Positions 41,127-60,890 of a DNA stretch of 64,000 nt are shown piece by piece. Below the pieces are notes generated by a model, which was not told where the DNA came from, did no database searches, and was given only the letters and a program-made list of their open reading frames with translations. Positions within the stretch are counted from its first letter, which is position 1; each line of letters starts with the position of its first letter. A program made the translations under genes and the position numbers. The stretch covers positions 1 through 64,000 of the IMG/VR virus record IMGVR_UViG_3300032011_003089, one strand, 5' to 3'. The DNA comes from a virus.

Positions 41127-41872
41127 ACAATAACTTAATCATATTTTACAAAGACCAATCTAAAGATGTTTTTTCATTCGCTTTAGATACCGACGAGCAA
41201 TCAGCCTTATCTAAATTCGAGAAGATGAGGCCCAACGTCAATAAAGAAGATATAGTTAAATACTTTTACATCACCGAAGATAAAACGCCAGCGGACACAT
41301 ACGGTAAATACTGTGAGCTCACGGAAAATAAAAAGATGAAATTAAATTTCCGTAATTTACTCATCGATAAAAGGGTTGAAGAGATACGCAAAAAGAGAGA
41401 CTCTATCTTGACAGGACTAGATGTTCCATTCATGAAGTCTCTAGAGGAAGATAACGACCAAGTTAAAAAGCACATCGTTAAAATGAAAAACTTCTTGAGA
41501 GATTTACCAGATAATTTTAAATTCCATTTAATGGAAACTGAAGAGGATATAATTAAGTATAATCCCTTTGGTAATATTTTTGAAGTCATTGTGATAGATG
41601 GCGGCAAAGGATACACCAAGCCGCCAAAGGTAACCATTGACTCGCCAAGCAACGGCTTTCAAGCTGAAGCCATGGCCTTCATAAAAGACGGTAAAGTGTC
41701 AAGGATAGAGGTTACTGAGACTGGATGCGGTTACAACTTCGTTCCTAGCGTAACCATAAAAGATAAAAAAACAAAAAATAAATGTATAGCTATGTGCGGC
41801 GTACCGCAAAACTGCTTCTTAACCGAGGAGCAGCTTTTGAATAACACCAAGTCTCATTACTTGGTGTCGTAG
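41123..41872 (+). CDS. Tail-tip associated protein with GYxxPPxV-type repeats
   Basis: A 249-residue protein coupled to J by ATGA. The N-terminal 150 residues are charged and helical with no known domain. Residues about 153-215 hold two copies of a beta motif: VIDGGKGYTKPPKVTIDSPS then AMAFIKDGKVSRIEVTETGCGYNFVPSVTI. Such G-x-GY-x-x-P-x-V repeats occur in structural proteins of marine phages and often trimerise. Probable tip or fibre attachment protein. It ends convergently inside the tape measure gene with a hairpin at the overlap. Confidence 0.6.
   Translation: MNNNLIIFYKDQSKDVFSFALDTDEQSALSKFEKMRPNVNKEDIVKYFYITEDKTPADTYGKYCELTENKKMKLNFRNLLIDKRVEEIRKKRDSILTGLDVPFMKSLEEDNDQVKKHIVKMKNFLRDLPDNFKFHLMETEEDIIKYNPFGNIFEVIVIDGGKGYTKPPKVTIDSPSNGFQAEAMAFIKDGKVSRIEVTETGCGYNFVPSVTIKDKKTKNKCIAMCGVPQNCFLTEEQLLNNTKSHYLVS
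41844..41867. terminator. Perfect 9-bp inverted repeat at the convergent gene overlap, possible bidirectional terminator
   Basis: ACACCAAGT (41844-41852), a 6-base loop, and ACTTGGTGT (41859-41867). It lies across the stop codons of the plus-strand tail-tip operon and the minus-strand tape measure gene. There is no clear T-run on either side, so termination efficiency is uncertain. Confidence 0.5.
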
Positions 41873-44800
41873 AGCATTCCTCCCGGACGTTTCTGCTGGA
41901 TAATTACATCCATTACTGAGGTCTTAATTCTTGCCGCCAACTCCTTGCTCTCCTGCTCTGTGAGGTCTCCAGCGCCCGAGGCGTCTGTGGTGTCAGCTGT
42001 GACATTTCCGTTGGAGTCAACGTTGACCGCTATATTAATGTTATTTGTGGTGGTGGTAGAACCCCCGATTCCAGAGCCGTCATTTGAGCTTGCCCCTTTG
42101 CTTCCTGGCATAGCCGTAATCGTGTGAGGTTTGCGTACAAGGCCTCCTGCGGCAAATTTGGCAAGTTTACCCGTATTGAGCCTATCGAAGAACTCTGTGC
42201 CATATTCATCAACTGTATCCTTGTTGAGAACGTATTCTCCGCCCATCAACAGGGCTGGCACATTATCACTGTTCATGCCGCCCATAGCGAATTTTCTCGG
42301 AGCGTTGATTAAGCCTCCTTTAGCTTTTTGGGTTGGTGAAATAAATGCGCCCTTGCCACCCGTGAGAGCTCCTGACACGAGCATCGAAGCCGCCCCAAAC
42401 AGGAAGCCGTATCTACGCCCTTGTTTCTCGCGTTGATGCTTCTCCATCGCTTCGTCTTGAGTTTTAAGGAACTCTAACTTCTCCTTCTGGTAATTGAAGA
42501 AGGTGTCCATTTTCTCAAATTTGTATTTGTTTTGAGGATTGTTCTCGTTGGTCATGGCGTAGGCTGACAATTTGGAGTCCTGTATCAACTTGCCCATCTC
42601 AGGACGCTGAAGGTTATCCATTACATATTTGTTTTTGAGATGCACCTTGTAAGAACCCTCACCAATTTCAACGGAGGATTCGTCGAACAAATCTCTATCT
42701 AAATTCTTGCCGACTTCTGGATATTTTTCAGCTATGGTTTTGATTGCTTCAATTCTTTGCGGGGTTAATGAGTTGTTAAGGTTTACTCTGTAGCCTCTGT
42801 GCGTTTCGAGCTCCTTCTCGCCGGTCTTTCTACCCAACCAATCTTCCTTATCTTTTTCGCCAAATTGTTTGTAGTTAAACGATTGTATACCCGCTGTTCT
42901 TAAGTCTCTAGCTTTAGTAAGCTCTTGCCTTCTGATGTTTGCGAGTCTAGCGATAGCGCCACCCTTCTCGGCTGTGACCACGTTAGAGCTATTGAGGGCG
43001 TCGAAGAACTGTTGTCCGTAAGCGTTTACGGCGGACTTTCTGATAACGTACTCGCCCTTGGTTAAGTAAGCTGGTACGTCGTCTTTCGTTCCAGAGCCTC
43101 CGTTAACTACGCCTCCCGATGCGTAACCCTTAACTTCGCCGCCCTTTTTCATTTTGCCGCCGCGTCCAAGAACCGCATCAAAAATCGAATTGACACCCAT
43201 TTGAAGTGCGTTGTCCAGCATCTTATCAGCCATGTTTTTGAACATATCACCAAAAGCTTCCTTGAGAGTCTTGGTTCCCTTGATGGCTTCTCCGAATGCG
43301 GAGGCTGTACCCGTGCGGAAGTCCTGAGCGAATTCCGCGCCCATTCTATTGATGTCTTTGAAGTAGTCTTGCTGGCTGTAGCTAAAGCCCGCGCGAACTG
43401 TTTCTGCGAGGTTTTTAAATCCGTATTCGCCAGCTTCAATCGCCGCTTCATTTGCTTTTTCTAGGGCCTGTCTGTACTGGGCCGTGGGGATTACGCCAGC
43501 TTCGTAAAGTTTGATTGTGTTTTGAAGCTCATTGCTATAGCCTTTAGAAGCAAGTTCCAAGGTTTTCGTCCTTGCTGAAATGTGCGTTTCAAGTTCTGCG
43601 TCAGTTCTTATTCCTGGGGATTCAATAAATTGACTCGTTTGCTTTTGCGCTGCGGACGCAAAGGCGCTTGCTTTATATTCGTTGGCAGAAAATTGATTAA
43701 CGTTCTCAAGTTTTGTGGTCGAATCTGCAACTTCAGCTTTATTATATTCTATTATTCTTTGCCTTGTCGTTTTGCCATCCTTATCAGCGTCATCGAGTTT
43801 CCTTGTACCATCAAGTATACCCGCGACCAGCCCATTATACTGGGCCGTAACTTTTTCGAATTTGACGCCGCCTTCTTCAAACATCCTAGTCATGTTGTCA
43901 AAATTCTGTCCCACCAATTCAAAGTTTACCTGTCGGGTGAGTTTTCTAACTTCCCCTTCCTTTTCTGTTCCCCATTTCTCTATAATATCTTGCAAATGCC
44001 CTCTTAGTTGTTCAGATATTTCTGTATCTGCGATTATCTTTTGCATATCGTTGCCGTGTTTTATCATGGCGTCATCAAAATCTTTTTGTAAACCACCGTA
44101 GTCTCCCTTTGAGGTGAGGCTTTTTATCTCGCTCGTCCCGTAGTCTGCCATCTTAGCGCTAATGTCATCCTCAAAATCATCAATAGTTTGGCGAGCTTTA
44201 TTCTTAGCGCTTGTCCTTAGCACAAATGATTGAGCTATTTGCTCCGCGACTTGAGAAGCCTTTGCAACCACGTCTTCTGAGAAGCCCATGCCTACAGAGG
44301 CTTTGGCTAAATCAGTTTGAGCGGTGGCTCGTGCATTTTTAGCTACCAAGGTTTGGTAGTCAGCAAATAATCTTAATTGAGCCTCTAGCTGCGTGCTTTC
44401 ATCAGCGATTCCTGCATATATGGAAGTCATGCCTTTAGCTGAGTCCTTAAGCTTATTTAAAAATTTTTCATTCTCCTCCGCCTTCGCCATGTATTCTGTT
44501 TGTATCTTAGCGGCCGCTCTTACTCCTGCTATTTCTTTATCTTTTTCCTTTGCTTTATTGAGTAAAAGCTTGTACTCTTCTTCAGCTTTTTTTCTTTGCG
44601 CTTCGTAGTGTTTCGCCTTCTTCTCTGCGTCAAAATTAGCCCCCTTTCCGAACTCTCCCCGCTTCTCGGCTTCTTCCGTTTTTCTATGAGCTATATCCTT
44701 GACTCCGGATTCCAATTCGTCTTTGGTTACATTCCAATCAAAATCCGTATCGAAACGTAACAAGGTCTGCATAAGAGCTTGCTTTTTCTCTATAATCAGT

Positions 44801-47800
44801 GCTATATCCTTTTCTGCTTCGGCTGATACTTCATCCATAGTCTTGCCTTGTTTGGCCATGGCGCTATATCTTTCATAGGCTTTCGTAAAGCTTACCTGTG
44901 ATTCGAAAAAGTCCTTCCTGAGGGATTCGCTAGCTTTCAGTCCTTTTTCCATCTCTTTGACGGTTGCATTGACATCATCAACCGCCTCTTGGACTGTGCT
45001 TTTATTTTTATTGTTTATAGATTGGGTGGTTTCTCCTTTGGGTTTTGGGGCGGCAAGATTATTCTTCTTCAGTCTTTCTCGAGCCGCTAACACGCTCTGT
45101 TTTATAGTACCTAAGAAGGACCCTGGTTCGTTTAGTGCGGATTGGGTTAAATTTCTGCTCTCGGGGTGTCTATTTTGTAAGCCAGCGGAAGCGTCTTTCA
45201 CCTTTTGTTGAGCGGTCTTTATTTTCTCTTCTAAAGCTGGGTAATATCCCGGTTTCATTTCACCTCTATCCATGTAAGGCTTAGAGTTAGCTTCGATGTG
45301 CCCCTTGTTTTGGTCTATTATCTTTTGTTGTTGGGCTCTTTCTTTTTTTAGATTCTCAAGATGTTTCTTTTCAGCAGCTTCCGTTCTGGTGTCTCTTTCG
45401 TGGCTGTAAGAAGGTAAGGCGTTAAAGGTTGAGTCTGCCGCCATTTCTTTGCGAGCCATCAGCGCGGCTATTTTTTCTAAATGTAAATTCGTTTCATAGT
45501 TCTGCCTGTGGGCTATAACGTCTTCTTCTGTAACTGCTGCCGCGTTTGGACCTTCAAACCCTAGCCTCTTCATTTCTGTGTCGTGCTCTGCCTGTTCTTT
45601 TACTGACCTACCCCAATCAAAACTTCCCGCCTGAGGGGTTAATGGTTTTATTTTTTCTTCAGCGGCAGCTATGGCTGCTTTGCGCTCGTCAAGTTCTGCT
45701 TTGTTTTTTAACAGAATATCCAAGTCAAGCTTGGCCGAGTCTACATCAAATTGTTGAAAACCTTTAGATGTAAGAGAGCTTCCCTCGGCTTGTGACCTTT
45801 GGCCTGGTATGTAGCTCGAAGCCGAATCTACCAATTTCTGAGCTGCTTTAGCTATAACACCCTTGGCTTTATCCATGCCAGAGTGCTCTAATCCGTATTT
45901 ACCTTTATCAACAACTGCTTTTATAGATTCTAGCGCGAAAGATAACTTGGTCGAAGCCGGTATAACACTACCCGTAAACCAAGCTTGATTAAATTTACCG
46001 TAAGCAGTGCCTAATAAGCCGGTCATTTTGTCCATTGCGCCAGAAAGGTCCCCAGAAGAAGACGCCACCTGCTCGAGGTTCATTCCTTCAACCGCGCTTG
46101 TATCTATTGGTTTTACTGGGGATTTTGGGGCTTTGTAATCAAAGCCTTCGCTCTTTAGTTTGGTTTCTGGGACCAAATTTTTTCTTAAAAGTTTAATTGC
46201 CTCAACTAATTCTGGGGTAGCCTGTTGTTGCCTTTGAAAATGCTCCAATAACTCATCGAACACTAAGGCGCCTTCACCAGCGCCCCCTTCTTTCCCCGCC
46301 AAATCCGAGGCCATCGTATAAAGCATTCTCTTCACTTCGTTTTCATCCAAGCCGTCTGTCACCATGCCGTATCTTTGGCCTCCAGCTTTATCCAACACCC
46401 TAACTATAGACTCTAAACCAGTTAAGTTTGTTTTATCCATTTTGGCTATTTCCGAAGCCAACATATCCACGCCCCTTCTACTGTCTTGAACTGTCTTTTT
46501 TTGCTCAATTAGTACATCATCTAAATTAACTGGGATGCCTCTTTTGTCATCGAAAGTAAATTCACTCTCTGAGGTGGTAGCAGACAGGCGGTTCCTAGCT
46601 TCAAGTAAAGCATTCCCTTCTTTTATTAGGGCGTTTTGTAAGTCTAATCTTGCGGCTTCTTTTGCTCGGTTCCCTCCAGCATTCCTTTCCGTTTCTATAT
46701 CTAGTATTTGCCTGAATAAAGAGTTATGGTGCGCGCCCATGTTTGATACAGAAGCTTCTCTAGTGCTCATCCTCAGGGCCTCGGCGGCGCCCCCATCTTT
46801 GCCGAAGCCCGGAATGATGCCAAAAGCAGCGCGTTCCGAGTAGTCCGCTGTCCATCCCGGTCCTTGAGCCCTTACCTGTTTTGCTTGGGCTGTAAGTTGT
46901 TGCGCTAACTTTAGCTGCTCCTGAGTCATTCCCTCGGTTGTTCCAAGCCGCGCAAACGCAAGCATTTTGTCAAAAGTTTCCCCTTGAGCGTTATTGTCCT
47001 TAGCCATTTCTTTGGCGATGTTAGCTAAGTATTGCATTTGGGTATCGTTGCCGGTTTCGGCTGCTCTTAGATACGACATAGCGCCCAATATCCCGCCTAA
47101 ATCCATTTCTTCTTTATCCACTGCCCCTTGGCCAGACCTTATGTTGGGCGAGCCCGTAGCTATGCCGCCTATAAGAAATTCTGGGGTGTCAGTGGTCCAT
47201 GCTTCATCATACCCTCTAGCAGATAGCTTCTTCCTAGCCTCTTTACCCGTCCAAGTTCCTTTGAAGCCCCGTCTCTCTTCAGTTAAGTCTGCATCAGAAG
47301 CGGCGCTCGCAGCATTCATTGCCTCTCTAGCCCTTCGCGCTTCGCCAGAGGCAGCTCTATAGTTGGCCATAGCGCCTTTCCCCGCCTGAACTACTTCAAC
47401 TTCTTTTTGTTTTTGTCTTTGGTCGGTAAACGCATTTGTGATAGCTTCTTGGTATCTTTGAAGTTGGCCACTCAAATGCTCATCCATCAAGCCTATGTCG
47501 GTAGATACCTGCCCTATGCTGCTATCAACCTTTAGAAAACCAGCAGCGTCAACGTTAGCTACCCCATTAATTACTTTGCCAAGGTTAACTTGGCCCTTAG
47601 GTATTTCACTTACGCCATTAGCTTTCAGAGCGGCGTCAAAAGCCTTAACGTTTTGGCCATACAAGTCTTGAGATTGATTACCTACCAAGACGTTTAATAC
47701 TTTAGAGTTCTTATTCATCTCTGCAATATCTTCAGACATGGATTCGAGCTTAAGCTCAGAGGTGATTTGTTTCGCAGCTATATCATAAGGGTCTGGCATA

Positions 47801-50800
47801 CCACCTTCTTTAGAGAATGCTTTACGAGCCTCTGCGGCGTCACCCGTTCTAATCGCCATTTGCCTTTGAGCCATAAACATTTGGGCTTGAATATCTTGAG
47901 CCCTAGAGACCATTGCGCCTTCAGCAAGCCCCATAGCAGCCGAGTTATCCGACATGTCGAACATGGGCATGGACTGCCTAATAATCTTTAACAATTCAAA
48001 GTCTGCTCTGCCTTGGTCTACCTGAGCGCCAGAATAGGACGCTTTCAATTGGCTCCCAAGAGCAGTAGCGAGGTCATCAAAACCCTTAGAAAACATAGTT
48101 TGACCGCCCTTTTCAAAACCTCCAGCTCCTCCCATCATTTTCAATTCTTGGGTTTGTCTTATCATGCGCTTTTGGTTGTCGGCTTGAATAGCGCTCATTG
48201 TAAGCTCCTGAGCTTGCTGTTGAATCATTATTGAAAGTTTATCGGCAAGACTTTCTTCTTCTCTTTCTAGCTGTTTTAAAATGTTATCGGTCAGAGCTTG
48301 CGCTTCTAATTGGTTATACCCAGCGTCTAGTGAGGCTTGTTTTATTTCTCCGTTAATCTTTTTTAAATCTGCCAATTTATCCTTGGAGTTAGTTAGTATT
48401 TTAATACTCTTTTGGACAACCGGAAGTAGAGTCTCTTGAGAGTTGGCGACTCTTGTGAACGCTCCTATTTGTGCTTTGCCTTGAGCGTTCTGGTCTTTTC
48501 TAGCTAGTAACTCATTTGTTTTCTTTGAGGCTTCAGTAAATTTTCTTAAAGGAATCTCTAGAGAAGCAAACGCCGCCTTTGAAGTTTCGGCTTGCATTTG
48601 CTTTAAGAATTTGGCGTTGATACCTGTAGCTCTAGTTTGCGCTTGGGTCGCGGCTTTACTTCCTTCTGTTTGGTACGCTGCCGCTCTTTCGGAAGAGCCC
48701 TTCGTAATTTCTTGAGCTCTAGCGATATTAAACGCTTGCGCGTTCCTCGTCATTTCGTCAAATGTTTTGGCTTTATTTTTTATGATATCTACAGTAGAGC
48801 CAAGGGTGGCGGAAAAAGAGGCTAGCTCTTGATTTAAGGTTTGGAGGTGTGCGCTATACTGCTCTTCAAATTTTCTTCTATCTTCTAGTATTAGTTGGGC
48901 TTTCTTAGCTCCTTCTGCTCCCTTTTCTAATTCTTTAAAGTAATCTTTTATTCTCTTCGTGTACGCGCCCACGTCAGCAGTACCCAGAGTATTGACAAAA
49001 TCAGAAAAATCATTACCAAGATAACTTGTATCTATGTCAGAAAAACTACCTATACTGTTTACGTCTAATTTACCAGATTCTATAGCCTTAAGAACCTCAT
49101 CTTGATTCACTCCTCCGCTTCTGATTTGAGATTTAGCGACGTTCTCTATTCTCTTTCGGTCCGACAAGCTATCGGCGTCATTGAATATTTTCTTATCGCC
49201 CCATTCTCCTGCAAATTTTTCTTGCAAATCAAAACCCTTGGTTGCCGCTTCCAAATCGGACTTGTCTCTTTGAAGGTTTGTTGTAATCTCTGCAAATACT
49301 TCTTTAATTTTTTCTGCGTCACCCGAGGCCGCTATAAATTGAGACCTAAATTTATCAGGGATGTCAGTAATAGATTCAGCCATTTTTCTTTGAAGGGAGG
49401 CTAGGTCTTCTGGATTTGCTTCAACTGGCTTTTTGAACATTTGGTTCATCTTGTTAACGGATTCAAGGTATTTTTGCCCAGATTGCTGCACCTTGTTAAG
49501 AGCTTCCCCGACTTGCTCCAGTTCTTTTCTAACTTGAGCGCCTCTTTCTTGAATTTCAGCTTTTACGAGGCCGTCGGCTAAAGATTTAATTCCCATTGTA
49601 GCGCCAGCTATACCGCCGATTGCTGCGCCCCAAGGGCCAGCCATTGCGCCCATTTGCGCTCCGGTGGCGGCATAAGAAGCTGCCATTCCAGCGCCTTCGA
49701 CTGCCGCTTTACCTTTCAAATCATCTTGGTTCATGAACTGAGAAGCCTGACTAGCAAGCATAGGCGCGGTAGCGATTATATTTGAAGCGCCACCGCCCTC
49801 GATAAAGCGCATAGCTCTGCCGCCTTTGCCGAACATTTTGCCAGCTTTCTTTTTCTCTGCTGCGGCTTTATCTCTAGCTTCTCTTTCGGGTTTTGTGGCT
49901 TCTTCGATTGCTTCAAGTTTTTCTTTAAGTTTTGCTTCAGATTCTTTGACGCTCTTCTTGTTAACTCCTGCCGCCTCTTGGGCATTTTCATTACTCTTTT
50001 GAGCTTTCCTGACGGTCTCCTCTTGCGCATCCATAAGCTCTCTAGCTTTTTGTTCTCTTTCATTAGCTAGCCTCTCTTCTTCTTCTAGGCTTTCAATTTT
50101 CTTATCCCAAAGCTGTTTAGCTCTTTCTATTGCTTTTGATATACCCTCTTCGCCTGTTTTGCCTTTGCCTTCGGCGCTTTGCAGCCACATCTCAGCACCA
50201 CCAGCTTCTCCTTCATATCCAGCTTCTCTGGCCACCTGAGCCAAGCCTTGTTGTTTAAAGGCTTCTGGGCCATCTTGTATTGCGTACTGCGTTCTTGCCT
50301 CCGACGCACGAGCTTCATTACGGCTGCTGTCCCACAACCCAAAAAGGATTTCTCCTTTGTTCTCCTGTTGTGATAGATTTTTTTGTTGGTCTAATGCGTT
50401 TTCATTGTAAGACATTGAAGCTTCTTGTTTCTGTTTATGCTGCGCTTCCGCCTCAGTTTTCCCTAACTTTTTTTCTTTTTCTTCTAAGGCTTGCTGTGTT
50501 TTATCTAAAGCTGCATCAAATCCTTTTAAGCCCTCGCTTCCTAATTGTTTGAAATTATTTCCAAGGTCTTTGATTCCACTAGCTAAAAATCCCATTGAAG
50601 CCATCATCATGGCGCTATCCATTGCACCACCAGCAAAGTTGGGGACATGGCCTTGGCTTGCGCCTTGGGTTTGAACTTCACCTATGCTTTTACCGCCCTT
50701 CAAATGCATGTTAATAGCATTAGTAAGTGAGCCCTCTGTCGTATTGTAAACGCCTATGCCGCCGCTCTTTCCTAACCTTCTATCATATCCAACTCTAGGC

Positions 50801-53800
50801 TGTCCTTGACCAGCTGCTTTTTCGCGGCCAACAGCTTCTTTGAGAGCGTCTCGAGAAAAATTAGGGACAAGGCCTTCGGCGTATGTTCCAAGGGCTTGTA
50901 GCATAGCTTTGTGCGAAGCGCCCTGCATCTTATCAAACTCTTGCATTTTCTTTTGGTTTGCAACCATCGAAAAAGCCTTCGAACCAATAGACTGAATAAC
51001 CATATCCTCCAACTCTGTGGTATACTGTTTAATCATGTCTTGGTCTTTAGCGAGCAAGCTGAATTCTCCTTGGGTTGGTATTTTCCCCATGCCCACATGC
51101 TGATAACCCGACCCTGCGTCCCTTCCTCTTAGCGGGTTAAAATCAACAGACTCTAATTCGTGGAGCTCTGGGTTGCTGCTGGCCACTAACTCGTGGCTCA
51201 TGTTCGTGCCGTGTACGTCAGAGTTTACGACGTTGCCATGTATAGCTTTGTTTGCTAAACCTTTTTTCTTGACGAAATCTTTGGTTGAAGTAATTAGGAT
51301 TCTGTTGTAGTCTGGATGGTCTGTTTTAAAGAGCTGCTCTAACGTGCCATAGTACTCTTCTCCTACAGATGATTTCGGGAAAACCGCTCCCCATCTTCCA
51401 TACTGACTAGCTAAGCCACTCGCTGATTGATGTATCTCAGCTTTAATTTCTTCTTTAGTAACATTTCTTTCTTCGCGCAGCATCTCGGGAGAATCCTCAA
51501 AACGAGTATTTCGTCCTCCCTCTCTCGCTTCTTTACTTAGAGGGGCATTTAATTTACCGCCGTGCCGCATCATCTTGCCGTACTCGGCTGCTGATACGCC
51601 ATTTTTAATGGCCCATTTTCTTTTAGCGACGTTTTGTTTAGCGTCTTCTTCATTCCACACCGCGTTAAAGGTAGGTCTACTATCGCCTTTTATGCCGTGC
51701 TTTTCTTTTAACCTATTTCTTTGGCCCGCATCTTGGGCATTAAAAGAGACCGCCCCTGGAGGGGGGACTTTTATGCGTCCGGTTCCGTATTGAGATATAT
51801 ACTCGGGAACGCCCATAGCTCTTAATGCTTGGTTTTGGCTGGCAGCTACTCGCTCTGGATTGATTTCTGACTCGAGCTCTCTTCCTCCATATTTGTCTTT
51901 TGTTGCTTTTTGGTCATCCTTGAAGCGGAACATCTCCGCCGAGTTAAGACCCTTCGTTGCCACTCCTCGACCTTTCATCAAGCGCCCTTGTTCTTCATCG
52001 TATAGTCTCTTTTTCCTATTTGCTTGCCATTCTTGAAATTCTGGAGAGCTGGCGTCGACCCCTAAATGCCGCTGCATTGCCGAGATATCCATACTGGCGA
52101 AGTTTGGAACAAAGCCGCCAGACTTCATGCCCATCGGCCCAAACGACTTAATCCAGTCTTTTTTCACGGCTGGGTTTGCGTTAAGCACGCCCATGGCTTG
52201 TTGGAATCTGTCGGGCGTAGTCACACTAGACAAGCCATGAGTCTTAATGTTATGACCAAGTATGTCAACTAAATACTTACTAAAGCTAGAAGCAATATCA
52301 ACAACTTTGCTTGGGTCACGCTTACTACGCTCATGAAGAGCGAGTTTTAATTGTAAATTCTTTTGGGTTTTTAATTTCTTTGCGATTGATTCTCCCACTT
52401 GGAAGTCCGAGCCTTTTTTCGCTCCCGGCTTAGCCTCGCCTAATGCGCCAGCCATTTCGTTTTCGAACTTAATACCAGCCATTGCGCCGCTTGTTCCTTC
52501 TGGGTCCCAATCAGCACCAGCGACACCACCGACTAAATCATAAGCTAAACCATCGAATAAATGGGGCACCTCATTAAGCATGGTCCGCCAATGAGCTCCG
52601 CTCTTCTTAATTTTTCTAGCGGTAAGTCCAGAGGCAATCATTCTTCCAGAACGACCATTCATATCAGTACCGACTACAAGAGTTTCATCTTCTGGGCCGC
52701 GAATCATTCTCATGCCAGCGGTCATTTTCTTGACTTGAGCCTCAGACATATCTTTGCCCATAGCGCCCTTTCTGCCAATCATCGTTGTGCCGTAATCTTT
52801 TTCGTGCAAGCCCTTGTACGCGAGGTTAGGAACAAAGCCTTGCGAAGCTAGGTTTAAATTCAGCCCCAACTTACCCCAAGCCTTACCACCATAACCACTC
52901 AGCCTAGCTTTGAAGGCTTTTCTTTTTTCTTGGAACATGCCTCTAGCTTCAGAAATCTCGCTTAGTTCACCCTTCTTTTTATTCGCCCCGTGCTTAGCTT
53001 TAAATTTACTAAAGTCTTCCTCTAGAAGACCCAAGCCTTTATTAGCTTTATCTTTTCTATCTTGAATATAAGACGCGCGTTTTTGTAAAACTGGAATATT
53101 GTTTTTGATTACTCTGAATATTTCTGGCGGAAGATTACTTTTTAAAGTAGTTAAATCTCCATCAACAATCGCTTTTCTGATTTTAGTCCCACTAACGCCA
53201 TCAAGCCTACCCTTAACAGGAACAACTCCTTTATAGGTTTTAGAGAATCTATCAGTCAAGTCTTCTTTGCCGCCCGAAACTCTATCTGCACCCAAGGCAA
53301 TCTTGGTGTCTTTCTTTCTCATCCTGTAGGCTTTGCCATCGTGCTCAAAATGCTCTTGGACTCCAGCGTTGCTAGGTATAGCCATGAGGTTTGGATTAGA
53401 AAGTTCAATTAGCTTTGCTTTTTCTCTTGGTGATAAGCCTACATCGTACTCTCTGTTCGCGCCTTTACTAACAAAGGCTACATCAGCGCCAGCTTGCGTT
53501 GCCATGTCTGCGTGTCCCTTCGTAAAGGGCGCGAACGCACCTATTGTAGCCGTAGCTCCTTTTAACTCATTAAGCTTCTCAAACCCCTCCGCCTCCTTCA
53601 GTGACATATCGGCCTGTCTTTCAAATACTCCTAGTTTTGAAGCATACTTTTCAGCAAGCAAAGCCTCAGTAACTACACCAGAAGATGAACCAAATTTTTG
53701 TTTAGGACTTCTACCGAAGTTTGTATCAGATGTGCCAGCTCTAGCTTGGTCAGAACGCTTCTCACGCATGCCTTTAACTACATCTTTGGCCCCTTTTAAA

Positions 53801-56800
53801 AAAGTTATTTTACCAGACTTCGTAAACTCTGGGCTGTCAACAACGGTTTGCGCAGCTCTCACTACAACTAACTGGTCCGATGGGTCAAGGTCAACAGGGT
53901 CAGTTACAAAGTTTCTTCCACCAGCGCGCTTTATAGCTTCGGTTGTTTTGCCAATACCAGCCGTACCAACGATAGTCTCTGAAATCTGCCCTCTTTGCGC
54001 GGCTTGGTTCACTATTGATTCGAACACTTGCCTAACCTCTTTACTACTGAGAGGCATACCCATGGACTGAGCTAGTTGGTCTTTATCTAGAATTTTGGTT
54101 GCAAAATTAGGAACGAATCCGCCGAAAGATTTAAGGCCAGATTTTTTCTGTTTAGCTTTGAAGTCGGCGGCGATAGCCTTTTCCATTTCTTGCTCTTTAA
54201 CTGCCTTTCCACTTAAAACTTCTATGAGACGAGCCACCACGCTTTCGTCTTCACCTTTGTAGGCTTGCATTTGTTTTACAAGCTGTTTACTTCCTGTTTG
54301 TGTTCCTTCGATGTATTTTCTCGCCAAGCTAAGTTTGACGCCTGAATCATCAGTAGTTCTTTTGGCGTCGATTCTTTCGTAATTACCAGATAGCCCAATG
54401 AATTTAGCGAGGCCCCCCATAGTTACGGTATTGGATGGAGTAAAGTCCCACCTTCTTCCGTCCTCTTGAACGGGGTCTGCCATTTTATTAATGAAATGGA
54501 ATACGGCAGCTTCCATAGCTCTACCCTCTTTAACCTCTTGGGTTTGTTTGGTTTTGCCTATTTTTTTATGCGTCATGTAGTCGCGGAACACCTTATCAAA
54601 TTCTTTATTCTTAAATGATAATCTTGCCCCAGACGCTTTAAGGTCATCTCTATTGGGGTTATCTACTGGTATCGTAGAAGACTGAATAGAAAACTGTATA
54701 ACGTCATTAGGGCTAAATACTTTATCTAAACCCTTAGGGGTTTTCAATCCATAACCGTGCTCTCCTTTTCTTGAATCAAAAAAGTCATCCAAGCTAATAT
54801 TCGCTGACATGAGGCCTTTCTTACCGAAAGCCCCAAACGCAGCACTTTTGAGCGCATCCACTCTTAATTGAGTAGAACCAAATAAATCAATACCCTTAAA
54901 ATCAGTAGGCAAGTCAATAGGTTTGAAATCTTTAGAGCTTCCTTTATCAAATCTAAAACCTAATTTTGAGTCGCCTTGATAAATAGGCGCGCCCTGCTTC
55001 TTTAAGAAGTCTCTAAACCCAGCGTATTTTGAATCATCTGGAGCCCCAACCCACCCACTTTTCTCGCCGGTGCGGAAAACGTTTCTTATAGATTGAGTTG
55101 GTCCGCCTTGCAATCTTACGCCAGCCAATTTAGCTTCTTTTCTTTCTTCTTCAAATTGCTGTAAGGCTTGTGGCGGATAATATTCTTTAGCTATCTCTTC
55201 CGCAGTCTGCATCTTGTACATCTTTTCGAGTATGTCAGACTCGTTCCATTTTGGGCCAGCCTTAACTTTCTGAATCCACTCTTTTGTTGTTAGCTCAGCA
55301 AAGTTAGGAATAAACCCTTGTGCGGCGTAAGGGTTAAATCCGTGCTGTTCTGCAAATTTCTGCTTGTAAGCTTTACCTGCATCACTGCCGCTCGGAGGCA
55401 TGATTGCTGGCTGGGACATACCACCAAAGGTCTTTACTGTTTCGGCGGAGTTGTAGGTTACCCTACCAACGCCTTGCACATTCATTTCTTTTACGGTGCC
55501 CGGTTTATAACCGCCTTGTAAAGCCCCTATTGTTTCGGTAGTGGCTCTTTCTTTCTTTTTGTTGAAGTTAGGAACCAAACCTCCAGCAAACATATTTGTT
55601 GGTCTCCAAGCGCCTTCGGTTTGGCCTCCACCTTGCATAGCTAAATTTAAAGCACCAAGGTCTACGCTCGTCAAGTTCCTAGCCATGGCCGCTGATAGGT
55701 CAGCGGACTGAGCTAAAGCGAAATTTCTAGCCCTAATACTTTCTAGAATTTTATCCGATACCCTAACCAAGTTTTCTTCACTGCTTCTTGCGGCGTCGAT
55801 TAAATCTGGGTTTTTAAGTAGAATGTTTTGAATAAGCATTTGCATTTCGGCTTGCTTCTTCGCGCCCTCGTTCATTCCAGCGAAACTTCTAACTGCGTCT
55901 ATGCCAAACTTACTGAAGCTAAACAAAAGCTTACCAACAAGAGCGCCTAAGATAAGCATGCCCGGTCCCTTTAAGATGTTGCCTATGCCCTCCAGAATGC
56001 CCTTGCCCATCTTCATGCCAATTGAGCCCGCGTCAGACTGGTCATCCATACCCTCGAGCATTTCGTTAATCTCTTCCAAGCTGTTTCTAAGCGCTGGGCC
56101 TATCGTGATGTTGCCGATGCTTGCGCCAACTTTTAAAAGATTCTGCATACTCTCATTAACTAGGGTGTTAAGAGTTTTGTTTAACTCCGCGTTCCTAGCT
56201 ATAGCTTGGTCAGTAGAGTTTACAGAAGTTCCTAAGGCTCTATCGTAAATTGAAAATTGCTTGCCTAAATCACCAATAGCGGCTTTCAATACGTTTACTT
56301 GGAAAACACCACCAACCATTTCAGCGGAAACGGCCTGTTGAGATGGAGTCAGGCTATCGTAAGCGTTGGCAAAGTTCTGTAGCGTTTGAATGGCTGGTAA
56401 GGTCGCTCCTTGGGCGTCTCTAACTACAACCCCAAAAGCTTCTAAATCAGATATAACTTTTGGCCTCTGTAGTCTGGTAAAAATAGTCTTTAATGAGTTA
56501 CCAATCACAGAACCGCCACGAGCCGTTACTTGCTGTGCGGTTGTAACCATCGCAATCAATTGGTCCAAACTAACCCCAGCGTCCTGAGCGGAACTACCAA
56601 CACGACTCACGGCTTTAGCTAGGTCAGCAGAGCTCACGGCAAATGCGGCATCAACATTAGCAAGTTTATTGACTAACGCTGTAGAGGTGATAACGGTTTG
56701 GTTGAAGCTGTTTATAGTGGCGGTTACGGCCTCAACAGAAGATTGAACGTCCAACCCAGATAGGCGAGTTAGAATCATAGCGTCAGAAGTTCGCTTGAGC

Positions 56801-57267
56801 GTCTCTTCTACCGCTAAACCTTGACGAGCAAATTCTAAAGCCGAATCAGAAACAGCTTCAAATGTTTGCCCTGTATTTTTTGCTATTGAAAATAGCTCGT
56901 TCCCGAAAGTTTTAAGGCCTTGCGTGCTGGCCATTAAGATAACATTAATCTCCGCCAGCTTATGCTCAAGCTGAACAGCAGAACGAACCATGCCTTCAAT
57001 AGAGCGGGTTACGTTATATATGATGCCAGCCGACGCCCCGAACGCGATAACACGAGCGTTAGAAGCTTCTAAGGATTTTTCGAATTCGCCAACAGCACCA
57101 GTAATTTTACCTAATGGTTGGGTATAAGATTTAGAGAGTAGCCCACCCTTAGATGATAATTGCTCGACCTTTCTAAGCGCACCTGTGATATCCTTCTCCG
57201 CCTTTCGCAAAGAAGCTCTATCCGCAACCGTTTTTACTGTTACTTCCGCTGTGGGTATTATAGCCAT
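41857..57267 (-). CDS. Giant tape measure protein with embedded enzyme-like domains
   Basis: A 5136-residue tape measure that sets tail length and is injected with the DNA. Residues about 60-400 are a TP901-type tape measure domain (NVILMASTQGLKTFGNELFSIAKNTGQ; GSVIGNSLKTIFTRLQRP), and LILGALVGKLLFSF near 440 is hydrophobic. From 560 to 2210 seven [VI]PN[FL] motifs occur (prolines near 566, 654, 1053, 1480, 1721, 2135, 2209). Between them are a PD-(D/E)XK-like segment (D941, DAK 967-969), a P-loop (GTAGIGKTT at 1101), and a nucleotidylyltransferase (GAFAPFTKGH at 1243, GVSGTKIR at 1357). Residues 2210-4700 are mostly coiled coil, with a hydrophobic Gly/Ala stretch near the start. Two copies of a D[DN]VPAxL...GEYV motif lie at 4729 and 5001. 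The gene starts after a candidate late promoter. Confidence 0.95.
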   Translation of the reverse strand: MAIIPTAEVTVKTVADRASLRKAEKDITGALRKVEQLSSKGGLLSKSYTQPLGKITGAVGEFEKSLEASNARVIAFGASAGIIYNVTRSIEGMVRSAVQLEHKLAEINVILMASTQGLKTFGNELFSIAKNTGQTFEAVSDSALEFARQGLAVEETLKRTSDAMILTRLSGLDVQSSVEAVTATINSFNQTVITSTALVNKLANVDAAFAVSSADLAKAVSRVGSSAQDAGVSLDQLIAMVTTAQQVTARGGSVIGNSLKTIFTRLQRPKVISDLEAFGVVVRDAQGATLPAIQTLQNFANAYDSLTPSQQAVSAEMVGGVFQVNVLKAAIGDLGKQFSIYDRALGTSVNSTDQAIARNAELNKTLNTLVNESMQNLLKVGASIGNITIGPALRNSLEEINEMLEGMDDQSDAGSIGMKMGKGILEGIGNILKGPGMLILGALVGKLLFSFSKFGIDAVRSFAGMNEGAKKQAEMQMLIQNILLKNPDLIDAARSSEENLVRVSDKILESIRARNFALAQSADLSAAMARNLTSVDLGALNLAMQGGGQTEGAWRPTNMFAGGLVPNFNKKKERATTETIGALQGGYKPGTVKEMNVQGVGRVTYNSAETVKTFGGMSQPAIMPPSGSDAGKAYKQKFAEQHGFNPYAAQGFIPNFAELTTKEWIQKVKAGPKWNESDILEKMYKMQTAEEIAKEYYPPQALQQFEEERKEAKLAGVRLQGGPTQSIRNVFRTGEKSGWVGAPDDSKYAGFRDFLKKQGAPIYQGDSKLGFRFDKGSSKDFKPIDLPTDFKGIDLFGSTQLRVDALKSAAFGAFGKKGLMSANISLDDFFDSRKGEHGYGLKTPKGLDKVFSPNDVIQFSIQSSTIPVDNPNRDDLKASGARLSFKNKEFDKVFRDYMTHKKIGKTKQTQEVKEGRAMEAAVFHFINKMADPVQEDGRRWDFTPSNTVTMGGLAKFIGLSGNYERIDAKRTTDDSGVKLSLARKYIEGTQTGSKQLVKQMQAYKGEDESVVARLIEVLSGKAVKEQEMEKAIAADFKAKQKKSGLKSFGGFVPNFATKILDKDQLAQSMGMPLSSKEVRQVFESIVNQAAQRGQISETIVGTAGIGKTTEAIKRAGGRNFVTDPVDLDPSDQLVVVRAAQTVVDSPEFTKSGKITFLKGAKDVVKGMREKRSDQARAGTSDTNFGRSPKQKFGSSSGVVTEALLAEKYASKLGVFERQADMSLKEAEGFEKLNELKGATATIGAFAPFTKGHADMATQAGADVAFVSKGANREYDVGLSPREKAKLIELSNPNLMAIPSNAGVQEHFEHDGKAYRMRKKDTKIALGADRVSGGKEDLTDRFSKTYKGVVPVKGRLDGVSGTKIRKAIVDGDLTTLKSNLPPEIFRVIKNNIPVLQKRASYIQDRKDKANKGLGLLEEDFSKFKAKHGANKKKGELSEISEARGMFQEKRKAFKARLSGYGGKAWGKLGLNLNLASQGFVPNLAYKGLHEKDYGTTMIGRKGAMGKDMSEAQVKKMTAGMRMIRGPEDETLVVGTDMNGRSGRMIASGLTARKIKKSGAHWRTMLNEVPHLFDGLAYDLVGGVAGADWDPEGTSGAMAGIKFENEMAGALGEAKPGAKKGSDFQVGESIAKKLKTQKNLQLKLALHERSKRDPSKVVDIASSFSKYLVDILGHNIKTHGLSSVTTPDRFQQAMGVLNANPAVKKDWIKSFGPMGMKSGGFVPNFASMDISAMQRHLGVDASSPEFQEWQANRKKRLYDEEQGRLMKGRGVATKGLNSAEMFRFKDDQKATKDKYGGRELESEINPERVAASQNQALRAMGVPEYISQYGTGRIKVPPPGAVSFNAQDAGQRNRLKEKHGIKGDSRPTFNAVWNEEDAKQNVAKRKWAIKNGVSAAEYGKMMRHGGKLNAPLSKEAREGGRNTRFEDSPEMLREERNVTKEEIKAEIHQSASGLASQYGRWGAVFPKSSVGEEYYGTLEQLFKTDHPDYNRILITSTKDFVKKKGLANKAIHGNVVNSDVHGTNMSHELVASSNPELHELESVDFNPLRGRDAGSGYQHVGMGKIPTQGEFSLLAKDQDMIKQYTTELEDMVIQSIGSKAFSMVANQKKMQEFDKMQGASHKAMLQALGTYAEGLVPNFSRDALKEAVGREKAAGQGQPRVGYDRRLGKSGGIGVYNTTEGSLTNAINMHLKGGKSIGEVQTQGASQGHVPNFAGGAMDSAMMMASMGFLASGIKDLGNNFKQLGSEGLKGFDAALDKTQQALEEKEKKLGKTEAEAQHKQKQEASMSYNENALDQQKNLSQQENKGEILFGLWDSSRNEARASEARTQYAIQDGPEAFKQQGLAQVAREAGYEGEAGGAEMWLQSAEGKGKTGEEGISKAIERAKQLWDKKIESLEEEERLANEREQKARELMDAQEETVRKAQKSNENAQEAAGVNKKSVKESEAKLKEKLEAIEEATKPEREARDKAAAEKKKAGKMFGKGGRAMRFIEGGGASNIIATAPMLASQASQFMNQDDLKGKAAVEGAGMAASYAATGAQMGAMAGPWGAAIGGIAGATMGIKSLADGLVKAEIQERGAQVRKELEQVGEALNKVQQSGQKYLESVNKMNQMFKKPVEANPEDLASLQRKMAESITDIPDKFRSQFIAASGDAEKIKEVFAEITTNLQRDKSDLEAATKGFDLQEKFAGEWGDKKIFNDADSLSDRKRIENVAKSQIRSGGVNQDEVLKAIESGKLDVNSIGSFSDIDTSYLGNDFSDFVNTLGTADVGAYTKRIKDYFKELEKGAEGAKKAQLILEDRRKFEEQYSAHLQTLNQELASFSATLGSTVDIIKNKAKTFDEMTRNAQAFNIARAQEITKGSSERAAAYQTEGSKAATQAQTRATGINAKFLKQMQAETSKAAFASLEIPLRKFTEASKKTNELLARKDQNAQGKAQIGAFTRVANSQETLLPVVQKSIKILTNSKDKLADLKKINGEIKQASLDAGYNQLEAQALTDNILKQLEREEESLADKLSIMIQQQAQELTMSAIQADNQKRMIRQTQELKMMGGAGGFEKGGQTMFSKGFDDLATALGSQLKASYSGAQVDQGRADFELLKIIRQSMPMFDMSDNSAAMGLAEGAMVSRAQDIQAQMFMAQRQMAIRTGDAAEARKAFSKEGGMPDPYDIAAKQITSELKLESMSEDIAEMNKNSKVLNVLVGNQSQDLYGQNVKAFDAALKANGVSEIPKGQVNLGKVINGVANVDAAGFLKVDSSIGQVSTDIGLMDEHLSGQLQRYQEAITNAFTDQRQKQKEVEVVQAGKGAMANYRAASGEARRAREAMNAASAASDADLTEERRGFKGTWTGKEARKKLSARGYDEAWTTDTPEFLIGGIATGSPNIRSGQGAVDKEEMDLGGILGAMSYLRAAETGNDTQMQYLANIAKEMAKDNNAQGETFDKMLAFARLGTTEGMTQEQLKLAQQLTAQAKQVRAQGPGWTADYSERAAFGIIPGFGKDGGAAEALRMSTREASVSNMGAHHNSLFRQILDIETERNAGGNRAKEAARLDLQNALIKEGNALLEARNRLSATTSESEFTFDDKRGIPVNLDDVLIEQKKTVQDSRRGVDMLASEIAKMDKTNLTGLESIVRVLDKAGGQRYGMVTDGLDENEVKRMLYTMASDLAGKEGGAGEGALVFDELLEHFQRQQQATPELVEAIKLLRKNLVPETKLKSEGFDYKAPKSPVKPIDTSAVEGMNLEQVASSSGDLSGAMDKMTGLLGTAYGKFNQAWFTGSVIPASTKLSFALESIKAVVDKGKYGLEHSGMDKAKGVIAKAAQKLVDSASSYIPGQRSQAEGSSLTSKGFQQFDVDSAKLDLDILLKNKAELDERKAAIAAAEEKIKPLTPQAGSFDWGRSVKEQAEHDTEMKRLGFEGPNAAAVTEEDVIAHRQNYETNLHLEKIAALMARKEMAADSTFNALPSYSHERDTRTEAAEKKHLENLKKERAQQQKIIDQNKGHIEANSKPYMDRGEMKPGYYPALEEKIKTAQQKVKDASAGLQNRHPESRNLTQSALNEPGSFLGTIKQSVLAARERLKKNNLAAPKPKGETTQSINNKNKSTVQEAVDDVNATVKEMEKGLKASESLRKDFFESQVSFTKAYERYSAMAKQGKTMDEVSAEAEKDIALIIEKKQALMQTLLRFDTDFDWNVTKDELESGVKDIAHRKTEEAEKRGEFGKGANFDAEKKAKHYEAQRKKAEEEYKLLLNKAKEKDKEIAGVRAAAKIQTEYMAKAEENEKFLNKLKDSAKGMTSIYAGIADESTQLEAQLRLFADYQTLVAKNARATAQTDLAKASVGMGFSEDVVAKASQVAEQIAQSFVLRTSAKNKARQTIDDFEDDISAKMADYGTSEIKSLTSKGDYGGLQKDFDDAMIKHGNDMQKIIADTEISEQLRGHLQDIIEKWGTEKEGEVRKLTRQVNFELVGQNFDNMTRMFEEGGVKFEKVTAQYNGLVAGILDGTRKLDDADKDGKTTRQRIIEYNKAEVADSTTKLENVNQFSANEYKASAFASAAQKQTSQFIESPGIRTDAELETHISARTKTLELASKGYSNELQNTIKLYEAGVIPTAQYRQALEKANEAAIEAGEYGFKNLAETVRAGFSYSQQDYFKDINRMGAEFAQDFRTGTASAFGEAIKGTKTLKEAFGDMFKNMADKMLDNALQMGVNSIFDAVLGRGGKMKKGGEVKGYASGGVVNGGSGTKDDVPAYLTKGEYVIRKSAVNAYGQQFFDALNSSNVVTAEKGGAIARLANIRRQELTKARDLRTAGIQSFNYKQFGEKDKEDWLGRKTGEKELETHRGYRVNLNNSLTPQRIEAIKTIAEKYPEVGKNLDRDLFDESSVEIGEGSYKVHLKNKYVMDNLQRPEMGKLIQDSKLSAYAMTNENNPQNKYKFEKMDTFFNYQKEKLEFLKTQDEAMEKHQREKQGRRYGFLFGAASMLVSGALTGGKGAFISPTQKAKGGLINAPRKFAMGGMNSDNVPALLMGGEYVLNKDTVDEYGTEFFDRLNTGKLAKFAAGGLVRKPHTITAMPGSKGASSNDGSGIGGSTTTTNNINIAVNVDSNGNVTADTTDASGAGDLTEQESKELAARIKTSVMDVIIQQKRPGGMLYDTK

Positions 57268-57303: not shown

Positions 57304-58317
57304 TTATACTCCATGCAATTTTATCATGTCTTCCATACTTAATGTCCCACCTTTTTTGCGTATTTCTTCGTTTAAATCGACTGTACCTGCATCTAATGGG
57401 TCTTTAGTCATGCCTAGGGCTTCCATATCTTCCTTGGTTGCGCCAACCACCGTTGAGGCCACGCCCGTAGCTTCCTTGCCGCCGCCATTTTCTTCCTGTT
57501 TTTTCTCTATTTCGTATAGCTGCAATAGTTTATCTGGGTCTTGCATGACATCTTGTGAAGGGGGGTGTTTCATCTCGGAAAGCATGTGTTTATAATACCT
57601 TCCGTAAGCAAACAAATCGGCTTGATGATACGTTAGATTAACCACTGGCTTGCCAAAGAATATCATTGGGTTGTCTTTGCAAAGATGAAAATTATTAAGA
57701 AAGAAACTACTCAAAGCCAGCCGCTTCATATTTTTGTCTGAAAATTGCCCCGAAACTAAATTATATACAGTAACCAGCTTCGAAAGCTCTATATCATTCA
57801 ACTCATCAAACTCTTCCTCATTGAACAAGTTGTTTTCACACTTTCTATCAGAGTATAAAGTCAAGAAGATATAGTAATCATTAATTCTTTTGTCTGCGTA
57901 TATCTCGGAGGTTAAACCTATTAGGTGCGTTTTCTCAGTGATTATTTTATCCAGCTCTTCTTCGGCTTCTTCTATTTGTATTTGCAAGGCGTCTTTTTCG
58001 GACTTGAGAAGCATTTTACTCTTAGTCTCATTCATTCTGGATATGAATTCTATAAACTCTTTCTGTTTTCTTTCTTTCTCTTTTGTCCAAGTTCCTTCAT
58101 CCAAAAGAATTTGCAGCTTCTCTTCGTTGGATGGCAAGCCTTTTTGAGTAGCCTCTAAGAAGTGTTCTTCTCGTCTTTCATCTAGAACTTCTGTGTCCCA
58201 TATGGTGAGATGCTTGATAAAAATTTTTCCGTAAGTTTCATCTTCAAAGTCAGACCTACCCCTTAATATGTCGGCGTAAATCTGCCTAAGCTTCTCTTTT
58301 GGGACTAAATTACTCAT
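57304..58317 (-). CDS. Probable tail assembly protein upstream of the tape measure
   Basis: A 337-residue soluble protein. The middle (residues 85-130) is a strongly charged coiled coil (LKSEKDALQIQIEEAEEELDKIITEKT), followed by a helical region (LFNEEEFDELNDIELSKLVTVYNLVSGQFSDKNMKRLALSSFFLNNF) and a disordered, Gly/Thr-rich C terminus. No domain is certain. Genes in this place, between tube and tape measure, usually encode the second tail assembly chaperone (lambda gpT position). I see no -1 slippery sequence linking it to the gene at 58377, and a terminator-like hairpin lies between them. Confidence 0.55.
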   Translation of the reverse strand: MSNLVPKEKLRQIYADILRGRSDFEDETYGKIFIKHLTIWDTEVLDERREEHFLEATQKGLPSNEEKLQILLDEGTWTKEKERKQKEFIEFISRMNETKSKMLLKSEKDALQIQIEEAEEELDKIITEKTHLIGLTSEIYADKRINDYYIFLTLYSDRKCENNLFNEEEFDELNDIELSKLVTVYNLVSGQFSDKNMKRLALSSFFLNNFHLCKDNPMIFFGKPVVNLTYHQADLFAYGRYYKHMLSEMKHPPSQDVMQDPDKLLQLYEIEKKQEENGGGKEATGVASTVVGATKEDMEALGMTKDPLDAGTVDLNEEIRKKGGTLSMEDMIKLHGV

Positions 58318-58325
58318 GTCAATAT

Positions 58326-58352
58326 AAAAAAAGCCCCGTTTAAAGGGGGCTT
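58326..58352 (-). terminator. Intrinsic terminator hairpin (minus strand)
   Basis: Inverted repeat AAGCCCC (58331-58337) and GGGGCTT (58346-58352) with an 8-base loop. Read on the minus strand the 7-bp GC-rich stem is followed by seven T. It lies between the two putative tail assembly chaperone genes. Confidence 0.75.
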
Positions 58353-58376
58353 AGGCCATAGTTTAAGGGTTAAATT

Positions 58377-59276: not shown

Positions 59277-59278
59277 AA

Positions 59279-59500
59279 TTACTTTAATTCTATATCTAAG
59301 CTATCCAATATCTCCTCGATTTCTCTAATCGTATCATTACCATAATCTAATATTCTTTTTCTATTACGTTGATATGCTTCCTGAGAATTGTATTGAGAGT
59401 TACTTGAATCTTCCAAAATAAAGAGAAAGTTTTTGTATAGATTTGTCACTTTGCGACGAACCTGAAACTTTAAGAAGTCTTTAGCCTTTTCTCCTTCCAT
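59279..59500 (-). CDS. Small helical hypothetical protein in the tail module
   Basis: A 73-residue, highly charged helical protein (FLKFQVRRKVTNLYKNFLFILEDSSNSQYN, then RILDYGNDTIREIEEILDSLDIELK). It has no recognised domain. The ATG lies downstream of a candidate late promoter at 59512-59536, and the next gene follows after two bases, so it leads an operon with the putative chaperone. A small assembly or scaffolding role is possible. Confidence 0.6.
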   Translation of the reverse strand: MEGEKAKDFLKFQVRRKVTNLYKNFLFILEDSSNSQYNSQEAYQRNRKRILDYGNDTIREIEEILDSLDIELK

Positions 59501-59511
59501 ACCTAGAGATA

Positions 59512-59536
59512 CCTTTTTCCTTACTTTATTTTACAC
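59512..59536 (-). promoter_or_regulatory. Candidate late promoter (best copy of the structural-gene leader motif)
   Basis: On the minus strand the leader begins GTGTAAAATAAAGT and ends AGGAAAAAGG. Over 25 bases it differs from the plus-strand copy at 33661-33685 in one base. It lies 11 bases upstream of the ATG at 59500 and just after the terminator of the tail tube gene. Confidence 0.65.
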
Positions 59537-59554
59537 TAAAAAAGCACTTTTCAC

Positions 59555-59582
59555 AAAAAAAAGGCTCCCAAAAATGGGAGCC
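59555..59582 (-). terminator. Intrinsic terminator of the tail tube gene (minus strand)
   Basis: Perfect 7-bp stem GGCTCCC (59563-59569) and GGGAGCC (59576-59582) with a 6-base loop, followed on the minus strand by eight T (59562-59555). It lies 25 bases beyond the stop of the tail tube gene. Confidence 0.85.
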
Positions 59583-60882: not shown

Positions 60883-60890
60883 TGTTATAA

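Follow-up and report, generated by a model that had tools for sequence, protein, structure and literature searches.

Layout of the tape measure gene

The analysed stretch of DNA (the window) comprises positions 1 to 64,000 of the IMG/VR virus record IMGVR_UViG_3300032011_003089. Its minus strand carries, at 41857..57267, a giant ORF of 5136 aa, the N-terminus of which matches many PHROG tape measure families in profile searches as well as the Pfam family PhageMin_Tail (PF10145, E=1.2e-26, 94.2 bits vs a cutoff of 33.2). The N-terminal tape-measure domain was delimited to aa 1-562 (55582..57267), with PF10145 at aa 129-317 and phrog_4211 matching at E=3.7e-43. Other tail genes lie next to it at 34239-41126 and encode minor tail proteins and a central tail fibre J. 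All parts of the protein described below are encoded on the same minus strand.

The N-terminal domain is followed by a small domain at aa 563-650 (55318..55581), bookend 1, which starts with the motif GLVPNF (copy 1, nt 55564-55581) and belongs to a family of 64 sequences. A second such domain, bookend 2 (aa 2132-2205, 50653..50874), starts with GLVPNF as well (copy 6, nt 50857-50874), and its family comprises 74 sequences. Copy 7 of the motif, GHVPNF (50635..50652), marks the end of bookend 2 and the start of the rod, which together with the C-terminus makes up the rest of the tape measure (41860..50634). Elements of the ASGG..DDVPAYLTKGEYVI type are found near the C-terminus, at about aa 4707-4766 and 4979-5038.

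When the two bookends were compared with the motif removed, hhalign gave a probability of 97.2 (E 3e-11), in comparison to 0.1 for the reversed control. This profile comparison shows that the two are homologous and represent a single small domain in two copies. Their derivation from the C-terminal DDVPA..GEYV tape-measure element was also considered and ruled out (hhalign probability <=0.2). Since two of the seven motif copies open homologous bookends, the cargo bay in the strict sense extends over aa 651-2131 and in the window holds four modules, A to D.

The repeated motif

The motif G-x-[VI]-P-N-[FL] occurs seven times in the tape measure, starting at aa 563, 651, 1050, 1477, 1718, 2132 and 2206. 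The residues listed in an earlier sequence-only reading of this DNA (566, 654, 1053, 1480, 1721, 2135 and 2209) are exactly the prolines of these copies, and the region that it delimited, nt 50641-55572, extends from the last motif proline to the first. In 2000 residue shuffles the mean number of copies was 0.001 and the maximum 1. Every [VIL]PN in the tape measure is part of one of the seven copies, and the motif was not found elsewhere in six frames of the 64-kb window. The same reading regarded the motif as punctuation between cargo units; each module does start with it, but two of the copies serve the bookends instead.

The possibility that the motif is a DNA recombination or homing site was rejected. 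Synonymous codon identity among the copies was only slightly above the codon-usage prediction (0.43 against an expected 0.37 in the window and 0.57 against 0.50 overall), and since the copies differ at synonymous positions the motif is better regarded as a protein-level element. In the structural model of the cassette of one relative (L014) the motifs fall inside stretches of pLDDT <50 or border on them, which supports their role as flexible linkers between folded domains. The invariance of the motif in the aligned cassettes is in part a matter of construction, as the rows were chosen by the motif.

A family of tape measures with a common plan

The N-terminal domain has at least 440 relatives in IMG/VR, of which about 80 tape measures were fetched and analysed. 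For this group, contigs assigned to MAGs suggest hosts such as Flavobacteriales or Halobacteriovorax. They follow a common plan: the N-terminal domain, a bookend of ~82 aa, variable cargo, a bookend of ~73 aa and the rod. Across the family each bookend begins with G-[FYLH]-[VI]-P-N-[FY], and one to several modules, each started by the motif, are placed between the two. Rod length is nearly constant despite the cargo: in L013, L014 and L016 the rods measure 1136, 1138 and 1130 aa with cargo of 251, 271 and 432 aa, respectively. The bookend domains were not detected in the searched collection of cultured and isolate phages, nor did modules B-D, used as one query, find a relative in cultured phages. 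No description of a tape measure architecture with a bay, bookends and the motif was found in the literature.

Trimming is known from some tape measures, and the modules might act at assembly rather than after injection, being cut from the tape measure precursor at the motifs and, once released, working in the cell that produces the phage. The position of the motifs in low-confidence linkers at every domain border, the motif at the start of each unit and a rod that hardly varies with the cargo would all suit such processing. However, no protease was recognised among the genes beside the tape measure, most of which have no matches, and some of the cuts would leave no more than a few tens of residues between them (L006, aa 1386-1405). 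We consider this explanation unlikely, though somewhat less so than the two other alternatives discussed below.

Cargo modules in the window and in relatives

Module A (aa 651-1049, 54121..55317) starts with motif copy 2, GFIPNF (nt 55300-55317), and bears a nuclease-like signature in its C-terminal part. A putative PD-(D/E)XK-like domain at aa 911-995 (54283..54537) was picked up with a profile of the domain found in the commonest cargo of the family (domain E=4e-4 and 12.9 bits in a search without filters, the hhalign probability being only 11.7).

Module B (aa 1050-1476, 52840..54120; motif copy 3, GFVPNF, nt 54103-54120) combines a P-loop with a nucleotidyltransferase. It matches PF16581 at 34.2 bits (cutoff 26.7), phrog_3041 at E=1.1e-5 and phrog_395 at E=3.1e-4, with cytidyltransferase among the PHROG annotations, and stays below the cutoff of the catalytic-domain model PF01467 (13.7 vs 21). 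The nucleotidyltransferase domain, the phrog_3041 stretch at aa 1228-1383 (53119..53586), contains GAFAPFTKGH and VSGTKIR, which read as [HT]xGH and ISxTxxR-like motifs. A Walker A-like GTAGIGKT is placed ahead of it at aa 1101-1108 (53944..53967). The counterpart in L003, 77 % identical, keeps the Walker A-like sequence and has equivalents of the other two motifs. These profiles and motifs show module B to be a predicted nucleotidyltransferase of the HIGH superfamily with an N-terminal P-loop signature.

Module C (aa 1477-1717, 52117..52839) starts with GFVPNL (copy 4, nt 52822-52839) and module D (aa 1718-2131, 50875..52116) with GFVPNF (copy 5, nt 52099-52116). Neither gave a match at a meaningful score in Pfam, NCBIfam, PADLOC or PHROG. 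Searches of solved structures with modules B, C, D and the cassette gave no significant match, and the AlphaFold model of modules C-D with bookend 2 had a pLDDT of 37.7, too low to be of use. The residues FE, SDF and QLKL of module C are reminiscent of PD-(D/E)XK. In IMG/VR, relatives were found at only five loci for module C and two for module D. The sequence-only reading expected at least two unrelated enzyme folds between the motifs. One is shown at the level of sequence, in module B; module A is linked less strongly, though significantly, to a nuclease-like family, and modules C and D are without a match.

The relatives carry further kinds of cargo. The staphylococcal nuclease (SNase) module of L006 matches PF00565 above the cutoff, and a GHKL match in L085, just below the cutoff, indicates a probable ATPase module. 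In the commonest cargo, an alignment of 45 sequences not selected by the residues in question showed a glutamate in 45/45, [D/E]-x-K in 45/45 (D in 37, E in 8) and a second lysine in 45/45, with the middle aspartate aligned in 30/45. These counts support a PD-(D/E)XK-like signature in this cargo. As no significant Foldseek/VIA match was obtained in PDB and BFVD searches of the cassette, the nuclease fold itself is not confirmed.

It could be argued that the modules serve as structural filler or represent enzymes in decay, kept only since insertions do a tape measure no harm, and that the motif is a neutral flexible joint, retained since recombinants joined elsewhere misfold. Tape measures tolerate large changes in length and several modules lack any family match, both of which this explanation would accommodate. 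It is nevertheless difficult to reconcile with the complete conservation of the catalytic-type residues E, D/E-x-K and second K in the commonest cargo, with nucleotidyltransferase motifs intact in both the window and L003, and with the long invariant blocks that module D retains at 52 % identity to L003, and we regard it as improbable.

Exchange of modules between relatives

The sequence-only reading had set a comparison of related tape measures as the test of exchange, and in this comparison the order of segments was not fixed and motif-bounded exchange was present. The order is A-B-C-D in the window, SNase-C in L012, SNase-C-HESTH-83 aa in L006, and other module-B-C-55 aa-D in L010/L003, two contigs that probably come from one genome. 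Module A is thus missing in L006 and L012 and has an unrelated module in its place in L010/L003. Module C is kept in L003, L006, L012 and L093, preceded by different modules, and module D is kept only in L003 and missing in L006 and L012.

One such event separates L014 from L016. The two proteins are 97.6 % identical over aa 1-628, after which a 161-aa in-frame, motif-bounded module is present in L016 only; past it the homology picks up again motif to motif (783/622). In the DNA, where this motif starts at nt 11753, similarity continues for 20-21 nt of it and ends at nt 11773-11774. The 161-aa module recurs in L080 (70 % aa identity), where it stands behind, not ahead of, another cargo. In a survey of mosaic phage proteins such signals were reported to be frequent in tape measures, but coiled-coil repeats and split ORFs prevented the confirmation of a genuine recent case (PMC10684548). 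Judged from the two aligned sequences, L014 and L016 are such a case, with one in-frame module bounded by motifs in one of two proteins.

Among 17 independent close pairs the left breakpoint fell at the motif in 10, in comparison to about 9 % expected (one side); in such pairs most changes of cargo begin where a motif ends. About half of the right-hand breakpoints were off the motif, many of them at the start of the conserved nuclease-like domain. In the aligned relatives modules are gained, lost and replaced from the motif onwards. The earlier proposal of exchangeable modules bordered by the motif is borne out for whole segments gained or lost at the motif, but has to be modified for the right-hand border, which in the commonest cargo family often lies inside the segment.

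Close relatives retain the nuclease-like part of the commonest cargo and have its N-terminal half replaced. This pattern, together with the nuclease-like signature, would fit diversification through conflict between phages, in which cargo delivered with the genome attacks and destroys a plasmid or phage, rival or resident, with its target chosen by the variable N-terminal half. The PDB and BFVD searches, however, provide no significant match for the nuclease fold, and we give this role little weight as a separate explanation; it is a special case of the delivery hypothesis set out below and not its opposite.

Proposed delivery of the modules

The bookends flank the bay directly after the N-terminal tape-measure domain, with the motif-started modules between them. 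By analogy with other tape measures, the protein may act as a delivery vehicle for proteins that reach the host cell. The modules would travel in the tail on the tape measure, unfolded or stretched, enter the host with it at genome ejection and refold there. A module of 150-400 aa would hardly fit the lumen of the tail tube in its folded state, which counts against injection unless it is unfolded. Once delivered, the modules would act as early effectors, enzymes of nucleic acids or nucleotides directed at host functions, host defence or rival genomes. The motif would be a conserved linker, used for docking to the tube or to a chaperone, or else a site of processing. New modules would arrive by ordinary recombination and be retained by selection if the joint sits in the motif linker. 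Taking all of this together, we think it probable, with moderate confidence, that the tape measure of the window belongs to a cargo-bay family with swappable, host-delivered, enzyme-like modules.

A broader proposal, to which we would give even chances, is that a large group of uncultured phages uses its tape measures as dedicated vehicles, the bookends and the universal linker allowing free exchange of injected enzymes with the length ruler undisturbed, much as polymorphic effector systems would look in phages. Should the modules be delivered, tape measures are a broad source of early phage effectors that is still unread, the bookends and the motif are a handle for finding such effectors in any phage genome, and they also let one ask how a tail carries protein cargo.

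Comparison with known systems

The PhageMin_Tail tape measures of SPbeta (YomI) and of Lactococcus 949-type phages resemble the protein in the N-terminal domain, the position among tail genes and the great length. Isolate tape measures match it over the N-terminal domain only (about 23-30 % identity), and the bookends are in none of the phage collection. The tape measures of mycobacteriophage TM4, as cited in PMC13277306, share enzymatic activity within the tape measure; theirs is a wall-hydrolase (peptidoglycan) motif and is not known to be part of a bay of several modules with a punctuating motif and exchanged cargo.

Sle1/Tme effectors of contractile injection systems also combine a carrier derived from a tape measure with an interchangeable functional domain (PMC13277306). 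That domain is C-terminal and rides on a contractile injection system, while the cargo in the window lies inside a phage tape measure, on the N-terminal side of the rod. DUF4157, the Sle1/Tme partner, gave no match in the profile scans, which covered part of the record. In polymorphic toxins the variable toxin is C-terminal and an immunity gene lies downstream; here the modules are internal and followed by 2931 aa.

Polyvalent proteins, known from phages and conjugative elements, likewise unite several enzymatic domains of unrelated kinds in a single polypeptide of the late region, and their entry into the host together with the DNA is predicted (PMC5512222). Tape measures are not mentioned in the text of that paper, and the proteins are described there without bookends or a repeated linker motif, unlike the protein of the window. 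Of enzymatic domains, the window provides one firm (module B) and one likely (module A), and L006 the SNase.

For the nucleotidyltransferase of module B a distant match was found in the cytidylyltransferases of cyanophages (T4-GC_190; 26 % identity, E=4e-3), which, unlike module B, are encoded by free-standing genes of ~385-430 aa outside the tape measure.

Motif and layout of the tape measure protein

The minus-strand ORF of 5136 aa within the window encodes the tape measure protein, and its residues 1-562 form a tape-measure domain (PF10145, E=1.2e-26, and many PHROG tape measure families). The motif G-x-[VI]-P-N-[FL] is present in this protein in seven copies, exactly at the positions noted by the sequence-only reading; a six-frame search found no further copy anywhere in the window, and the shuffled protein contained 0.001 copies on average. 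Between motif copies within a single gene, synonymous sites vary almost to the extent expected from codon usage, so selection on the motif acts at the protein level; the motif may serve as a linker, for docking or for processing. In the structure model of the cassette from L014, a related IMG/VR locus, the four motifs fall within or border on stretches of low confidence (1-13, 90-97, 347-366, 432-435 and 442-455) flanked by confident domains. A literature text search on the motif, with most subscription journals and all preprints outside its coverage, returned no relevant paper.

A search of IMG/VR with an alignment of four N-termini yielded 440 tape measure relatives, 80 of which were used for the comparisons of layout and cargo. 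Nearly all of them follow one plan: N-terminal domain, motif, approximately 82 aa, motif, cargo, motif, approximately 73 aa, motif and rod. Most carry a single cargo segment of 200-300 aa and the window has four (A, aa 651-1049; B, aa 1050-1476; C, aa 1477-1717; D, aa 1718-2131). Eight motif copies were found in a Halobacteriovorax MAG contig; L098 and L100, both contigs of one such MAG, share the same eight copies, and their modules are almost identical.

The ~82-aa and ~73-aa segments flanking the cargo (bookends; aa 563-650 and 2132-2205 in the window) constitute two sequence families, mutually homologous after removal of the motif (hhalign probability 97.2, E 3e-11; reversed control 0.1). 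Both were modelled as helix, strands, helix in one relative. Even at E=1, a search of 50,697 phage records with either bookend consensus gave no match, and the likeness of isolate phages to the window protein was confined to the N-terminal domain. Two C-terminal ASGG..DDVPAxL..GEYVI elements (window 42970-43149 and 42154-42333; aa about 4707-4766 and 4979-5038), present in many relatives, superficially resemble the internal motif; by hhalign they are not homologous to the bookends.

Identity of the cargo modules

The proposal that the segments between motifs are enzyme-like held for module B, which combines a P-loop with a nucleotidyltransferase domain (a PF16581 score above the cutoff and two PHROG cytidyltransferase families), the latter distantly resembling free-standing cyanophage enzymes. 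Module A may be related to the commonest, nuclease-like cargo, whose profile it matches at aa 911-995 (E=4e-4). Modules C and D gave no meaningful match to any Pfam, NCBIfam, PADLOC or PHROG family. In an alignment of 45 commonest-cargo sequences, not selected for the pattern E ... D ... [DE]-x-K ... K, its residues were E in 45/45, D in 37 and E in 8 at the [DE] position, and K in 45/45 at both lysine positions. PD-(D/E)XK nucleases typically have a D or E two positions ahead of an invariant K. The commonest cargo appears to bear such a PD-(D/E)XK-like signature; fold searches with the L014 cassette model did not confirm this fold.

The nuclease-like domain occurs in duplicate, in separate motif-bounded segments of one tape measure, in the relatives L037, L072, L080 and L081. 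A single motif-bounded module of L085 (aa 954-1529) combines a probable GHKL-type ATPase with a following HEAAH stretch. L006 has a module containing HESTH, and a weak GNAT match was found in the cargo of L097.

Exchange of modules at the motif

The tape measures of L014 and L016 are 97.6% identical through residue 628, past which L016 has an extra 161-aa motif-to-motif module, and homology to L014 restarts at the motif. The DNA similarity of L016 to L013 and L014 stops 20-21 nucleotides inside the motif. The 161-aa module recurs in L080, there behind another cargo. Modules A and B are missing from L012 and L006, where a staphylococcal-nuclease module takes their place (PF00565 in L006, E=2.8e-6, with the L012 module related); L012 also lacks module D. 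In L010 and L003, two contigs from one metagenome and probably one genome, module A is swapped for a different one and B, C and D are kept.

Breakpoints were mapped in close pairs with N-termini 80-99.5% identical. Of 17 independent pairs, 10 had the left breakpoint at the motif, versus about 9% expected (one side), and right breakpoints fell near a motif in 7 of 14, versus 15%, both expectations being computed for one sequence; independent pairs are given without a p-value because the pairs share ancestry. The remaining right breakpoints lay elsewhere, often 80-125 aa ahead of the next motif, at the beginning of the nuclease-like part; exchange therefore often concerns the N-terminal half of a cargo and not the whole. 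The suggested exchange at the motif is thus borne out by gain and loss of whole segments and by the left breakpoints, but only partly by the right ones.

According to a systematic survey of phage protein mosaicism (PMC10684548), recent mosaicism in tape measures could not be confirmed. Polyvalent proteins (PMC5512222) and tape-measure-like CIS effectors (PMC13277306) have a similar working principle, but a layout of the window type is absent from the descriptions in the accessible parts of both papers. During genome ejection, tape measures pass into or through the host envelope (PMC13277306). The cargo modules would be delivered to the host with the tape measure at this step. In L013, L014 and L016 the rod measures 1130-1138 aa and the cargo spans 251-432 aa; this near-constant rod length fits a cargo that is not part of the ruler.

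The virus record

The record, of 68,929 bases and possibly a fragment, encodes a lambda-J-like tail fibre, DNA polymerase, helicase and ribonucleotide reductase. Two minus-strand blocks, 57304-63328 (-) adjoining the tape measure and 27316-33587 (-), gave almost no PHROG or Pfam match. In L005 (IMGVR_UViG_3300037427_002834), whose cargo region is identical to that of the window, the tape measure frame closes after residue 2786 and a second frame opens there (nt about 18295-18338); the window ORF is open at the same place, and a sequencing or assembly indel in L005 is likely. The locus L106 (G000:C1:63800-68929) reads as a fusion of collagen-like GAA/GPT repeats with a LamG/concanavalin-looking domain, adjoined by methyltransferase-like and glycosyltransferase-like ORFs.
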